The translations under genes and the position numbers were made by a program. Source: Neglectibacter sp. X58 (GTDB lineage: Bacteria > Bacillota > Clostridia > Oscillospirales > Acutalibacteraceae). From it: DNA of 54,181 nucleotides. The DNA lies in NCBI RefSeq assembly GCF_009936035.1, contig NZ_QWEO01000017.1:1-54181 (forward strand). Direction: 5' to 3'. Below the pieces are notes generated by a model. The model made no database searches. It saw only the letters and a program-made list of their open reading frames with translations, and was not told the DNA's origin. This document shows positions 27,715 to 33,037 of the stretch, in pieces; the stretch's first letter is position 1, and each line of letters starts with the position of its first letter.

Positions 27715-27921
27715 AAAAAAGCAGCCCGCCCGACCGTATTGTGCATCTCAATAACCTGCTACAGAAAAAGCAGGTGGGTGCCCTCCCATTTGGTTCTCGC
27801 TCCCTTCGTCCAGCAACGGTCAACGCCGCGCCGGGAGGTCTGCAATCCGCAAGCGGAGACAAGGCTCCCAATATGAGGAGTGTAGGGTTATATGTGCACA
27901 GTCCGCGAATCGGGCAGGCTG
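27715..27921 (-). ncRNA. ssrS: Structured RNA, probably 6S RNA
   Basis: The minus-strand sequence folds as a closed rod of about 200 nt. End stem CAGCCTGCCCGA (27921-27910) pairs with TCGGGCGGGCTG (27733-27722), directly followed by TTTTTT. Inward, TGTGCA pairs with TGCACA and ATAACC with GGTTAT. Then comes an open region whose 3' side reads GGGCACCCACCTGC, loop, GCAGGTTAT: a small hairpin bordering a bubble. That layout (long closing stem, bubble with 3' hairpin, no ORF, intrinsic terminator) matches 6S RNA, which binds RNA polymerase. The assignment is by architecture, not by alignment; another structured RNA (for example a leader of the SLOG gene) is the alternative. Confidence 0.65.
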
Positions 27922-27982
27922 TTTTACACAAAAGCCAGCCTGCCGCGCCCAAAGGCGCAGTATTCAATTTCGTGAAAAGATT

Positions 27983-28285: not shown

Positions 28286-28532
28286 AAGCAGTTTGCGCTC
28301 CTTTCCGAAAGCATGATGAGCTTTCTCTGAAACACATTGTACATAAAAATGGGGCTAAAGTCAAGAGCGAATCGGCAAAAACCACCGGATATCCGTTTTT
28401 TTCACGAGGCTTTCACCTCTTTCCGCTTCTATAGCCTGCCCGTTTCCCTGCCCTTTAATGCCCGCAAAGTAATCATATGCCGCAGGCTTGTAAAAAACGC
28501 AAAGATTTTTTCAAAAAAGTTTAAAAAACCTA
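28286..28532. other. Gap between DUF1292 and the large RNA promoter
   Basis: No gene seen. AT-rich towards 28500-28530 (A/T tracts just upstream of the -35 box at 28533), which could act as an UP element. Confidence 0.5.
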
Positions 28533-28561
28533 TTGACAAGCTCCTGGTTTAGTAGTATACT
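28533..28561 (+). promoter_or_regulatory. Consensus sigma-A promoter of the large noncoding RNA
   Basis: TTGACA (28533-28538), exactly 17 nt, TATACT (28556-28561). An A/T-tract region (TTTTTTCAAAAAAGTTTAAA) precedes it. This is among the strongest promoters in the window, yet no protein gene follows for 1 kb. Confidence 0.88.
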
Positions 28562-28567
28562 ATAGCC

Positions 28568-29361
28568 AGAGACAAGGGAATAAGAAAAACTAAAGTCTCA
28601 AAGGCGCATTCGCAAACCGGAAGTAGGCAAGGCAAAAGCTAAGCATGAAAACGGTGAGGAGAGAGTAAAAAGAACTGCAAAGCCTGATTTGACAAAGAAA
28701 AAATAGCTGCAACCAAAGCTAAAAAGGCAGACAGGTTTTAGTAAACAGAAAAAGTAACTGCAAAGGAGCAGCGAAGGGATTTTCTGAACAGCAAGCAGTT
28801 CTGGAAGAGGAGACAATGCGAAGCGCGAAAATCATGAAAGAAAGGCGGGTGAGTCCGATGGATACAGTTGAATCACAGCACCAGGTCTGCGGACTCATAG
28901 TCCGCAGATAATAAAAAATCGGGAGAAACGAGAAAACTGAAAGAGGGGTACACCCACTGAAGCATTCTCAAGCATGTAAAAGGCCAATAAAGCACGGGAC
29001 TGCTTAACAACGTCTGGTTATAAGCTTCTTTAAGCGGATAATTTACATAAACATAAAGATAGACGGAAGGCATTAAGCGGCAATGATGTGCTGGAAAAAG
29101 AAAGAGGTACACTTCCGGTGTACAGTTTCAAAAGTTGGCGGATTGACTAAACAATGTGTCACAGGAAGTTTCCTTAAATAAAAGAGGAAACCTTAATCGG
29201 AAAATATTAAGCGCTGTGATGAATGTTGTGATAGAAATCGCATGAGAGACTATATCGAATTGCTAACACAATAAACAGGGATTCGGTTTTAACAGTTCAC
29301 TCATACGTTAATCTCTCGTAATGAGAGGGGCTTTCAAGGAGCACTTGGAAGCCCCTTTTTG
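28568..29361 (+). ncRNA. Candidate large structured noncoding RNA (~794 nt; ROOL/GOLLD-like size class)
   Basis: This transcription unit is bounded by a consensus promoter and a perfect terminator, with no protein gene on either strand. The sequence is purine-rich with many local hairpins: GAGAC/GTCTC at the 5' end, TCTGCGGACT-CAT-AGTCCGCAGA (28887-28909, 10 bp), GTACAC/GTGTAC around TTCCG (~29107-29123), GTTTCCT/AGAGGAAAC (~29168-29190) and CTCTC/GAGAG before the terminator. Its length and gut-Clostridia setting match the giant RNA classes ROOL (~580 nt) and GOLLD (~800 nt), but I cannot assign it to either by sequence. One 31-codon ORF (28816-28911, RBS GAGGAG) has no recognisable product. 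Confidence 0.7.
29327..29360 (+). terminator. Intrinsic terminator of the large noncoding RNA
   Basis: 12-bp stem GGGGCTTTCAAG / CTTGGAAGCCCC (one G-U pair), loop GAGCA, then TTTTT. No coding sequence ends upstream of it. Confidence 0.88.
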
Positions 29362-29450
29362 ATATTGTGCCATGCATATCCATTTGTAAGATACATTTAT
29401 AACAAGCCTTGCCTGAGAATTGATGAATTTCCATTTTCAAGTGCGTTCAA

Positions 29451-29487
29451 TAGAGAAGCCCCCCGGTTTTACCGGGGGGCTTCTCTA
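29451..29487 (-). terminator. Strong palindrome, likely terminator of the SLH surface protein
   Basis: Perfect stem TAGAGAAGCCCCCCGGT / ACCGGGGGGCTTCTCTA (29451-29467 / 29471-29487). It lies about 70 nt past the SLH gene stop, but no long T-run follows on either strand, so termination efficiency is uncertain. Confidence 0.6.
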
Positions 29488-29556
29488 TACATCAAGAAAC
29501 TTGCAGACAGTTTCTGAAAGGCTGTTTTCCCAAAGAACTAAGATAGAGGCTTATCC

Positions 29557-32500
29557 TTACGCCAGGAAATTCATAAGCATCTGGGCCACTTCGGCCCGGG
29601 TAGCAGTTCCAGTAGGATCCAGGCGGTTGTTCCCTTTGCCTCGAACAATCCCGTTCTGCACAGCCCAGCGCAGGGCAGGCAGGGCATATTCGCTGGCCTT
29701 GCCTGCGTCAGTGAAAGAGGAGAGAGCGCTTTTCTTGGCCTTTGGTTCCCCGGCATACCGCCAGAGAATAGTGGCAAGCTGCTCCCTGGTAACAGAATCG
29801 TTAGGGCCAAAGTGGGTTCCGTCATATCCCATTACATAGCCCTTCTGGGCCGCCCAGTTGACAGCGTTTGCATACCATTCCTTGGCAGGTACGTCAGTGA
29901 AAGAGCTGCCGCCGCTCACCCAAGGCCTGCCCTCCTTGTTGTAGAGGATTTGCGCCAACTGCGCCCGGGAAAGCTTCTGGTTGGGGGAAAAGACAGTTTT
30001 GCTGTCTCCCTGCATCAGGCCGTTCAGTTCTGCAAATTCCACAGCCCCATAGAACCAGTCGCCTTTACGCACGTCGTTAAAGGGATTTTTCCATTGGATA
30101 GCGGAGTCAAAGCCCACAAAATAGAGGGAGAAATGGCTTGTGGTATAAGTGGCGGCTTTTTCCACCTGGCTGTACCGGGTCGGGCAGGCCGAGGCTTTCC
30201 CTTTCTCGTCCAGATAGTATACAGTGATGCCCGCAGCCGACTGCCCCGGCTTTAAGGTGTAGGGCAGGGAAACCGTGGCTTTGCCTTTGCCGAAATCGGT
30301 AATGGCGGCATTGCCCTGAAGGCTTAAATCAAAAGCAGGAGCTGTGCCGATGGACTCCAGTTGCCCAGGCGTTAAATCATGCCGATCTTTTGCAAGAATT
30401 TTCAGCGTCACCTTGCTGCCTGCCTGCTTCTGAATGGAAGCCAGCGCGGCGGCATCAAAGGAGACGGAGCCTGTGGAGAGCTTCAAAGACAGCCCCTCCA
30501 CATCGTTGCCCTGGGCCTGGGCCGCGGCGGCAATTTCCCCAATAGCAGCGCCGGGCAGCTCTACTGTGTCAATCTCCTGCTCCAGGCCGGAGAAATCAAT
30601 CAGCACCATGCCGGTGTCCACCTTTTCCCCAATCACGCTGCCAAGCTGGGTGGTATCAATGGTGCTCACCACAGCGGTGGAATCTTTTATGCTGGCCACA
30701 ACCTCCACCGTTTTTTCCTCGCCGGAAACCGGGATTTTCACCTCCACAGGCGGAACAGGCACCTCTTCCACCTCGCCGAAGGCCAGCACCTTCACAACGG
30801 CATAGCTCCCAGCCTCAAACTTATCAGTTTCCTTCACACGCACGTAATAGGTTCCGGCGGGAAGCCCGGTAATGGTGTTGCCGGTGCAGTCCTTAGCGTT
30901 TGTAAAACCACTGTTTGTAGCGTATTCCATTTTATCCGTAGTGCCGCTGATTTGCCCGTCCCTGCCGTCCTTCTTGGTGGGGGAAGTAGCTTTCAGCCCG
31001 GTGGGCGCCGCAGGGGCCGCGCCCTTGCCAATGCTCCATTTTATTTCTTTTGCATCGGTGGCGCCGTCTGCCCACTGGTATTTTGTAGTATTCTGTAGGG
31101 CTGCAGTCGCGGTATACTCGCCTATCTCTGTAGCTGTGTTGCCGACCAGGGTATACCCCGTTCCTGCTTCCACGCCTGTCAGTTCTTCCCCCGTATATTT
31201 CAGCCCGGTTTTGGCAACAGGGATAGCGATGGAGGTAGGCTTACCCGGTTCTGGAGACGGAGAGGGGGACGGCGTTGGTGTGGGTGTTGGCGTTGGGGTC
31301 GGCGTTGGGGTTTCGCCGTCCGTTGGGATAGTAACAGTAAACTGCGCTTTTGGCTTTACCCCAGCCGCACAGTTAGCTGTGGGAACAGAGATAGTAAAAT
31401 TATAGGTGCCAGCCGGGATAGGTGTAACACTATTCTCCATTCTGAAAATGAAACTATCATCATAAACTTCAAAGATAAATTTGCTACCTGAATCATTCCA
31501 AGTGTAGTAATCGTTTTCGTCAGGTTCGTTATTCTGCACACATTGAGCATCTTTACTATTTATCAGCACAGTTAGACGGATAAACGAAAGAGAGGAAATG
31601 GACGCTGAATCCTCCCCAAATTCTACATCATAAGGAATTTCAACCTCTGTTTTATTATCATTTACTTTCGGCGTGTTAGCCGCCAGGCTTTTCACTAATA
31701 TCTTCTGCTCGGCCCCGGCACTGGGATCTACGACTTTCCAGTTTCCGCTTCCATCATTTTGGATAGTTAGTTTTAACTGATCTGCGGTGCTTTTCGGAAG
31801 AAAGGAAAAGGAGGTGGAAGTGGACTTAGGAGCTGAGATGAGAAGCTGATTGACCGAGACACTCCCGGACGAAGCATTATTAAACACACTCCCAATACCA
31901 ACCTTTGTTTTTCCGCTCACCGTACCGTTAATGGTAAGCTGCTGTTTTTCTCCCAGCACCAGCGTGCCGCCGCCAGCAAAATTACCGACTGGGGTAGTAC
32001 AACCTGTGATGTTCAGTTCGGCTCCAGAACGGACGGAGAGTTCTTGTTCATCCCGGAAGCTGCTGTTTGCGCCCATAATCAGCTTGCCCGCCTCAACTGT
32101 CAAGCTGGAAATATCCTTAAAAACGCATGTTGGCGTGGAGTTTGGGCTTGCACTGTACACCACTTTCGTCTTTGTAGCGCCAGCGCCGTCCACGTCGGGA
32201 AGTGCATTTGTCCCCTTAATAGTAACAGTGCCATTAACCTTGTATTTATCCGGATTTGCAGTTATTTCTTTCCCGGCAGTTGCTCCCTGGGGTGTCCGAT
32301 TCTGTCCGCCTCCAGCATAAATGTTTCCTAAAGAGTCCTTGTCAGAACGATCCTCAATGTTAATGGTAACATTGCCGTTGAATGTACTGGACTTACCATC
32401 GCCTTCTTCTCCAACATTTACGCCAAATTTTCCTATTGACAGATTACCCGCAAAAATATTGGCAGGCCCCAAAGGATCAGGATGGTCGCCCTGAAGCTTT

Positions 32501-32988
32501 GTTTTTCCTTTGATATTGATAATTCCTGCTGTACCAGGGGAGGGAACAGTATATTTATCCTGGTCTGCTTTTTCCAGCGTACCGCCAAAGAGATTGATAG
32601 AAAAATTACCCGCGGTTACGGTGTCTAGCGTTAGGCTGTGCCCGTTAGCAATAATCGCATTGCGTCCATCCGCACTTGTAAGGTTCAATTTCATATTTTT
32701 GAACGTCACATCTGCATTTAACAGAATACCAGGTGCCCGGATTATAACAGTATGGCCTTGCCCGTCAATAGTTATATTCTTTCCGATAGTCCACGGGGAA
32801 GCTACTGTATCAGCGTTGACTTCAGCATCGCCATCTAAAGTAATCGTGCCTCCAGTAGTAGCGCTGTCGACTAAGTTTTTTAAGTCAATGAAGCCAGCTT
32901 GTTCATCGCTTCCCGCCGCTCCCGCTGCCAGGGGCAGGGCGTATAGGGGGATTGCCAGTGCCAGTAAAAGGCTGATAATTTTTTTCAT
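29557..32988 (-). CDS. Large SLH-anchored surface protein
   Basis: 1143 residues. Signal peptide MKKIISLLLALAIPLYALP, cleaved near AAGAAGS. Residues ~25-400 form a repetitive beta-strand (beta-helix-like) region rich in NIKGKTKL, TVTIKGTN, GAELNIT steps. A Thr-Pro/Ser-Pro linker follows at about 570, then small Ig-like or YDG-type domains (GLKYTGEELTGVEAGTGYTL-like), and three SLH repeats at the C-terminus (~965-1143: FNDVRKGDWFYGAV, FTDVPAKEWYANAV, FTDAGKASEYALPAL). It is displayed on the wall; an adhesion or structural role is likely but not proven. ATG 32988 follows GGAGGAGTATAT; the longer start at 33021 is rejected. Confidence 0.87.
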   Translation of the reverse strand: MKKIISLLLALAIPLYALPLAAGAAGSDEQAGFIDLKNLVDSATTGGTITLDGDAEVNADTVASPWTIGKNITIDGQGHTVIIRAPGILLNADVTFKNMKLNLTSADGRNAIIANGHSLTLDTVTAGNFSINLFGGTLEKADQDKYTVPSPGTAGIINIKGKTKLQGDHPDPLGPANIFAGNLSIGKFGVNVGEEGDGKSSTFNGNVTINIEDRSDKDSLGNIYAGGGQNRTPQGATAGKEITANPDKYKVNGTVTIKGTNALPDVDGAGATKTKVVYSASPNSTPTCVFKDISSLTVEAGKLIMGANSSFRDEQELSVRSGAELNITGCTTPVGNFAGGGTLVLGEKQQLTINGTVSGKTKVGIGSVFNNASSGSVSVNQLLISAPKSTSTSFSFLPKSTADQLKLTIQNDGSGNWKVVDPSAGAEQKILVKSLAANTPKVNDNKTEVEIPYDVEFGEDSASISSLSFIRLTVLINSKDAQCVQNNEPDENDYYTWNDSGSKFIFEVYDDSFIFRMENSVTPIPAGTYNFTISVPTANCAAGVKPKAQFTVTIPTDGETPTPTPTPTPTPTPSPSPSPEPGKPTSIAIPVAKTGLKYTGEELTGVEAGTGYTLVGNTATEIGEYTATAALQNTTKYQWADGATDAKEIKWSIGKGAAPAAPTGLKATSPTKKDGRDGQISGTTDKMEYATNSGFTNAKDCTGNTITGLPAGTYYVRVKETDKFEAGSYAVVKVLAFGEVEEVPVPPVEVKIPVSGEEKTVEVVASIKDSTAVVSTIDTTQLGSVIGEKVDTGMVLIDFSGLEQEIDTVELPGAAIGEIAAAAQAQGNDVEGLSLKLSTGSVSFDAAALASIQKQAGSKVTLKILAKDRHDLTPGQLESIGTAPAFDLSLQGNAAITDFGKGKATVSLPYTLKPGQSAAGITVYYLDEKGKASACPTRYSQVEKAATYTTSHFSLYFVGFDSAIQWKNPFNDVRKGDWFYGAVEFAELNGLMQGDSKTVFSPNQKLSRAQLAQILYNKEGRPWVSGGSSFTDVPAKEWYANAVNWAAQKGYVMGYDGTHFGPNDSVTREQLATILWRYAGEPKAKKSALSSFTDAGKASEYALPALRWAVQNGIVRGKGNNRLDPTGTATRAEVAQMLMNFLA

Positions 32989-33037
32989 ATATACTCCTCC
33001 TGATCTATGATATGCCTGCACATGAAACCGCGAGCCG

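Follow-up and report, generated by a model that had tools for sequence, protein, structure and literature searches.

What is encoded at positions 28562-29360 (plus strand) of contig NZ_QWEO01000017.1 of Neglectibacter sp. X58, where Rfam lists no gene and about 795 nucleotides (nt) lie between a consensus promoter and a terminator? We analysed this unit within the whole stretch of 54,181 nt (the window) and among related genomes. A large structured RNA gene, absent from Rfam, is well supported by the sequence comparisons: computationally, the unit is conserved, its helices covary, it has a conserved start site followed by a short open reading frame (ORF), and copies of the start site in relatives have frame-specific stops. 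The reading we favour, to which we give about an even chance, is that this RNA represents a new family of large structured RNAs that engage ribosomes and are dual-function, i.e., both structured and micro-coding.

The sequence-only reading of this stretch had proposed a promoter-to-terminator unit of about 795 nt, and the proposal was borne out, with TTGACA at 28533-28538, a 17-nt spacer, and TATACT at 28556-28561. The terminator, described there as a perfect stem of 12 base pairs (bp) followed by TTTTT, does have a 12-bp stem (29327-29338/29344-29355) and the TTTTT (29356-29360), although one of the pairs is G-U; a simple terminator scan did not include it (29327-29360) in its listings. Promoter-like strings by themselves occur at the chance level (two found vs. 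2.0 expected); the unit stands above chance because of conservation, namely, that of the promoter with its A/T tract and the blastn and model matches. The predicted folding of the transcript is more stable than that of shuffled sequences (z = -6.57, from 20 shuffles only). As for the claim that the interval contains no protein gene, long genes are indeed absent from the plus strand, where no ORF of at least 40 amino acids (aa) was found within 28562-29358, but a conserved ORF of 17 codons had been overlooked. On the plus-strand flanks, a 71-aa ORF ends inside the promoter and a 52-aa ORF begins at 29359; the antisense strand has ORFs of 40, 72, 59, and 79 aa, and a 47-aa ORF overlapping the end of the unit.

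According to blastn, the unit is matched in 15 out of 29 genomes of the genus, and a covariance model of its 3' domain (R1, built from 21 sequences and yielding rough E-values) matches 23 out of 29, once each, the own genome being counted in both cases. R1 also finds genomes outside the model, G007 (E 4.7e-6) and G014 (E 7.2e-15). In the order, under stricter filters, it matches four out of 394 genomes, all from the same genus. The unit is located upstream of a DUF1292 gene (Pfam) and oriented divergently from it; on 29 DUF1292 loci from other genera, the best R1 score was 19.4 bits (E 0.02), which we do not claim as a match. The DUF1292 gene itself was unmatched in three out of 29 genus genomes. 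From 27 genus regions we extracted 21 complete units, 431-1248 nt long; two regions truncated by contig ends (L059, L074), three without the unit (L066, L071, L073), and L064, where the core motifs are missing by pattern though R1 detects the domain, were dropped from the alignment.

Covariation on related regions, proposed earlier as a check, was found in both the 3' domain and the ORF hairpin, where helices covary above shuffled alignments; as the sequences are related, none of the shuffle counts given here is a true probability. In the 3' domain, 34 alignment cells show changes in both partners of a pair that is kept, compared with 12.2 in shuffled alignments (0 out of 500 shuffles), and in the 8-bp version of the ORF hairpin, 11 cells compared with 2.9 (0 out of 500). 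We do not claim one of the inner helices of the 3' domain, in which just 63.5% of the cells are paired. In the 5' domain, the variable ACCG:CGGU closing pair is standard in 19 out of 20 units scored (shuffled mean 15.2, p 0.003), G012, G019, and G042 possibly having the wrong partner by pattern and G041 being unscored. The ORF hairpin had been noticed before as a 10-bp hairpin, correctly except for its place, 28887-28909, which is shifted by one base; it falls inside the micro-ORF, and with CUCAUAG in its apical part it presumably resembles the anticodon arm of the initiator transfer RNA (tRNA), which may be a coincidence. A long-range helix UGAGUCC:GGACUCA is possible in 96.4% of the genus cells, its covariation being weak (five cells vs. 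2.1 shuffled; six out of 500 shuffles). UGAGUCC is complementary to the ORF over at least 7 bp in 17 out of 21 genus units (null 1.5) and in 20 out of 22 loci of the order (null 2.4), 18 of the 22 coming from one family.

The micro-ORF is preceded by the genus motif GAAAGGCGGGUGAGUCC, nearly complementary to the 3' end of 16S ribosomal RNA (rRNA), with the start codon one base later. For the duplex of the motif with the 16S tail, whose sequence was taken from the own genome, the median at the 21 genus sites is -21.0 kcal/mol; the best starts of the long ORFs of the window (one for each of 57 six-frame ORFs of at least 200 codons, not all genes) give a median of -10.8 kcal/mol, the best value being -18.5 kcal/mol. 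The ORF has 16-24 codons in the 21 genus units and starts with ATG in 19 of them, GTG in one, and TTG in one; at least 14 codons are open in 21 out of 21 units in frame 0, in 11 in frame 1, and in nine in frame 2. The GUG of GUGAGUCC was rejected as the start codon, its spacing to the Shine-Dalgarno (SD) sequence looking too short. The second start-like site reads as AUG, one to three codons, and a stop in 14 out of 21 genus units by pattern, plus G041, which the pattern missed. Of the "giant noncoding RNA" proposed from the sequence alone, the large structured RNA stands, given the conservation, the covariation, and the conserved promoter and terminator, whereas "noncoding" applies only in part, as the RNA contains, near its center, a conserved ribosome-binding-like site and a micro-ORF; the unit is probably not purely noncoding. 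A purely noncoding ornate RNA of the GOLLD, ROOL, or OLE kind, forming a homomeric assembly and having its ORF by coincidence, would agree with the length, the conserved structure, the own promoter and terminator, and the gut Clostridia host, but it is improbable, as Rfam gives no match to GOLLD, ROOL, or OLE, and the start-codon variants and frame-specific stops (63 copies, see below) fit translation.

Most of the genus peptides start with M[DG]xxE[PST]Q[HQ], and one may ask whether the unit is just an ordinary small messenger RNA (mRNA), with this micropeptide as the product and the rest as long untranslated sequence. The strong ribosome-binding-like site and the ORF open in all 21 units speak for it, as do the acidic N-termini, alike across genera (the class-I ORFs from other genera being selected for this comparison at a length of at least eight codons). 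We nevertheless consider it rather unlikely: the frame of the C-terminal half differs among clades while the hairpin is kept, the ORF occupies only about 7% of the transcript, with strong covariation outside it, and a useful peptide is hardly to be expected from the relatives' ORFs, with their two to four codons. The covariation outside the ORF suggests a role for the RNA itself.

The start site is not confined to the genus. Of 57 DUF1292 loci from the family's other genera, 18 have a class-I start, counted 60-760 nt upstream of DUF1292, compared with 0 out of 57 on the reverse complement (60 regions were fetched; L162 and L197 were left out, yielding 58, and one more was too short). The site pattern has 27 matches in 120 family genomes (21 genomes matched), with none in the reversed controls, and among 394 order genomes 72 matches were listed vs. 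two reversed (61 genomes matched); the motif of the window itself, with three bases between AAAGG and GUGAG, falls outside the order-wide pattern. We read 26 new order loci, all from families f1 and f13 and including two starts of long ORFs (L239, L240); frame 0 runs for 15-19 codons beyond the start in 22 of them, e.g., MVTEETSYSFAGLAAAL, while the other frames reach 15-20 codons in two and four. Some relatives have the site in repeats: by pattern, G472 and G449 contain six copies apiece, and inspection of G472 by eye suggests about nine; later copies often carry minimal ORFs. Among 63 family motif copies, coming from 71 sequences (13 of them chosen by a motif match that requires A(U/A)G and leaves the stop free), a stop occurs within three codons in 39 copies in frame 0, and in 11 and 12 in the other frames; random positions yield a mean of 15.0 and a maximum of 25 in 2000 draws. 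Therefore, many of these copies are minimal ORFs. A pattern search also gave a hit in Burkholderiales (L091).

Some copies of the motif are associated with protein genes. An HD-domain gene (PF01966, L240:1499-2034) of G356, a genome of the order that belongs to a different family, has the AAAGGGGTGAGTCCCATG start motif, and in L215, L220, and L225 single copies lie, by eye, 5' of or at the starts of apparent protein genes; hence, mRNA leaders may harbor the motif as well.

These same genes, preceded by the motif, could be explained if the unit were a decoy for a trans-acting small RNA that reads UGAGUCC between the SD sequence and the start, thus soaking up a regulator of translation starts, and UGAGUCC is indeed kept more strictly than SD complementarity requires. 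On the other hand, GGACTCA and GGGCTCA are absent from the loci of transfer-messenger RNA (tmRNA), ribonuclease P (RNase P) RNA, and 16S rRNA, the only ones searched, and in the window the complement of UGAGUCC is present in the same RNA; we give this explanation little credence.

The genomic setting is variable. The window 6S RNA (27719-27923, minus strand) adjoins the DUF1292 gene, and 6S RNA is near DUF1292 in 12 out of 13 genus and family loci scanned; as it is beside only two out of 19 order loci scanned, the location varies. Just downstream of the RNA unit, several genus relatives have, by eye, an HD-like ORF. That ORF and the combination of a micro-ORF with a hairpin, resembling attenuators, would be expected of a cis-acting leader or attenuator of a neighboring gene, yet the 21 units end in terminators, the next gene of the window (29557-33021) is on the opposite strand, and the location is not constant, making a cis-acting role highly improbable. 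A very strong G/C-rich hairpin, AGAGAAGCCCCCCGG...CCGGGGGGCTTCTCT (29449-29488), separates the RNA unit from the SLH gene on the opposite strand and is perhaps the terminator of the SLH gene.

Table 1. Features of the RNA unit, in window coordinates.
Feature	Position	Strand	Basis
A/T tract, putative UP element	28505-28532	+	Directly 5' of the promoter; similar tracts in 23 genus loci
Sigma-70-type promoter, TTGACA-17-TATACT	28533-28561	+	Same place in 23 genus loci
5' hairpin CAGAGAC...GTCTC	28567-28599	+	Near the presumed transcript start; similar hairpins in relatives by eye
5' domain, ACCGGAAGTA (28616-28625) and GAAAACGGTGAGGAG (28647-28661), ACCG paired with CGGT	28616-28661	+	Conserved motifs
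Extended SD-like motif GAAAGGCGGGTGAGTCC	28840-28856	+	Near-complementary to the 16S rRNA 3' end; genus alignment
17-codon micro-ORF MDTVESQHQVCGLIVRR, stop TAA	28858-28911	+	ORF in 21/21 genus units
10-bp hairpin, loop CAT, in the 3' half of the micro-ORF	28886-28908	+	Covariation of the 8-bp version
3' structured domain, AGCACGG...GATGTGCT closing helix, GCTT/AAGC hairpin	28991-29133	+	Covariation, model R1
Second start-like site GAAAGAGG...GTGTAC	29100-29126	+	By pattern in the genus
Intrinsic terminator, 12-bp stem and TTTTT	29327-29360	+	Found in 21 units, 429-1246 nt downstream of the promoter

Several observations weigh against a family of ribosome-engaging, dual-function RNAs. In their second halves, which follow the hairpin, the peptides differ among clades in the frame that is read, and therefore the peptide itself may not matter. 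UGAGUCC holds a kept bulged G, off perfect complementarity to the 16S tail, so that something else may select it, and in the family loci from other genera its pairing with GGACUC is at the chance level (two out of 16 with at least 7 bp, null 1.7). The window copy of the second site has no near stop. In the family, 39 out of 57 DUF1292 loci have no class-I start by the pattern used, and AAG replaces AUG in 15 out of 55 motif copies; an in-frame stop within five codons is found in 14 of these 15, and AAG copies with near stops are not explained by plain initiation. Neither the AAG copies nor the kept bulged G is accounted for by the reading we favor. Finally, G004 (L071), G009 (L066), and G016 (L073) keep DUF1292 and have neither the unit nor an R1 match, apparently due to losses of the unit or assembly gaps.

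Since ribosome docking is the strongest common denominator, we still favor an RNA with ribosome-dependent activity or stability. Its most conserved element is a ribosome-binding-like site, very strong and close to the start, after which comes the 17-codon ORF, with a hairpin formed by its second half. Upon transcription and translation, an initiating ribosome would sit at the center of the RNA, open the hairpin, and terminate just behind it. Ribosome occupancy would serve as the input, with free 30S subunits or initiating ribosomes captured by the site; captured ribosomes would report on or buffer ribosome availability and stabilize the long transcript. In the genus of the window, the output would come from the covarying 3' domain, and the repeated sites with minimal ORFs in relatives would multiply the docking points. 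A bolder version, which we put forward only as a speculation of low probability, is a bacterial RNA of a categorically new kind, a stand-alone giant ribosome decoy or sensor with one to about nine super-strong docking sites, each with a micro- or minimal ORF, distributed over an order of gut Clostridia and affecting translation in the way that 6S RNA affects RNA polymerase.

Few large structured RNAs are known from bacteria, and for most of them no function has been established. Here, function can be approached through three conserved elements, each of which can be changed separately: the start codon, the stop codon, and the ribosome-binding-like site. If the repeated minimal ORFs bind ribosomes, the RNA would sense or regulate the translation machinery in these bacteria. 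Even in a modest reading, this is an RNA gene, absent from Rfam, in most genomes of the genus and in a single copy in all 23 matched.

Comparison with known families yielded mostly negative results. At the gathering thresholds of Rfam 15, the sole match in the whole window is the 6S RNA, and in a lax search of 28400-29520 against all 4227 families (E up to 5) neither ROOL nor GOLLD was listed, none of the 15 sub-threshold hits lying wholly within 28540-29323. A scan of 13 related loci (three from the genus and ten from other genera) gave no match to ROOL or GOLLD, and the related loci scanned against Rfam 15 have no family apart from 6S. Thus, a divergent member of ROOL or GOLLD, the first of two options previously considered, finds no support from the Rfam models, and with both families unmatched the other option, a new class, is the better fit. 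No description of this RNA was found in the open-licence literature, supplementary tables excluded (e.g., those of PMC8040213, with 3161 candidates), and the main text of PMC11109978 names none of the three taxa tried. Other candidates were rejected: ROOL, GOLLD, and any other Rfam 15 family, by the absence of matches in the unit; tmRNA or RNase P RNA in disguise, both being located elsewhere in the genome, above the cut-off; and viral origin, as one strict motif pattern had no hits in viral contigs, no looser search being made.

Dual-function RNAs, such as RNAIII with delta-haemolysin and SgrS/SgrT, combine a structured RNA with a short ORF. The likeness here is that a single RNA has both conserved structure and a short ORF, and a conserved short ORF with a start site was indeed found in this structured RNA; in contrast to RNAIII and SgrS/SgrT, some of its relatives bear arrays of minimal ORFs, and we know of no sequence relation to either. 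With GOLLD (RF01998) and ROOL (RF03087; identifiers as given in the sequence-only reading) it shares a gut or rumen setting. Similar length and elaborate conserved structure are also common to them, whereas the RNA studied here carries a micro-ORF that is conserved and has a strong ribosome-binding-like site, the window contains no tRNA gene, and the length of the unit varies from 431 to 1248 nt inside one genus. GOLLD and ROOL form homo-oligomeric RNA cages, as described in PMC12286853. According to PMC8708949, the mini-ORFs axe-txe mg2 and the LEE4 leader have an SD sequence and a start codon, with a stop only a few codons further on, and ribosomes on mini-ORFs can protect transcripts; the same arrangement of SD, start, and near stop is seen here, but those minigenes sit in leaders of protein genes, whereas here the arrangement occurs in a stand-alone, terminator-ended structured RNA and is repeated in some relatives. 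Extended start-proximal SD pairing is employed by Staphylococcus aureus (PMC13009471). In its mode of action the RNA would be comparable to a dual-function RNA, and it resembles the mini-ORF leaders, but we assign it to no family.
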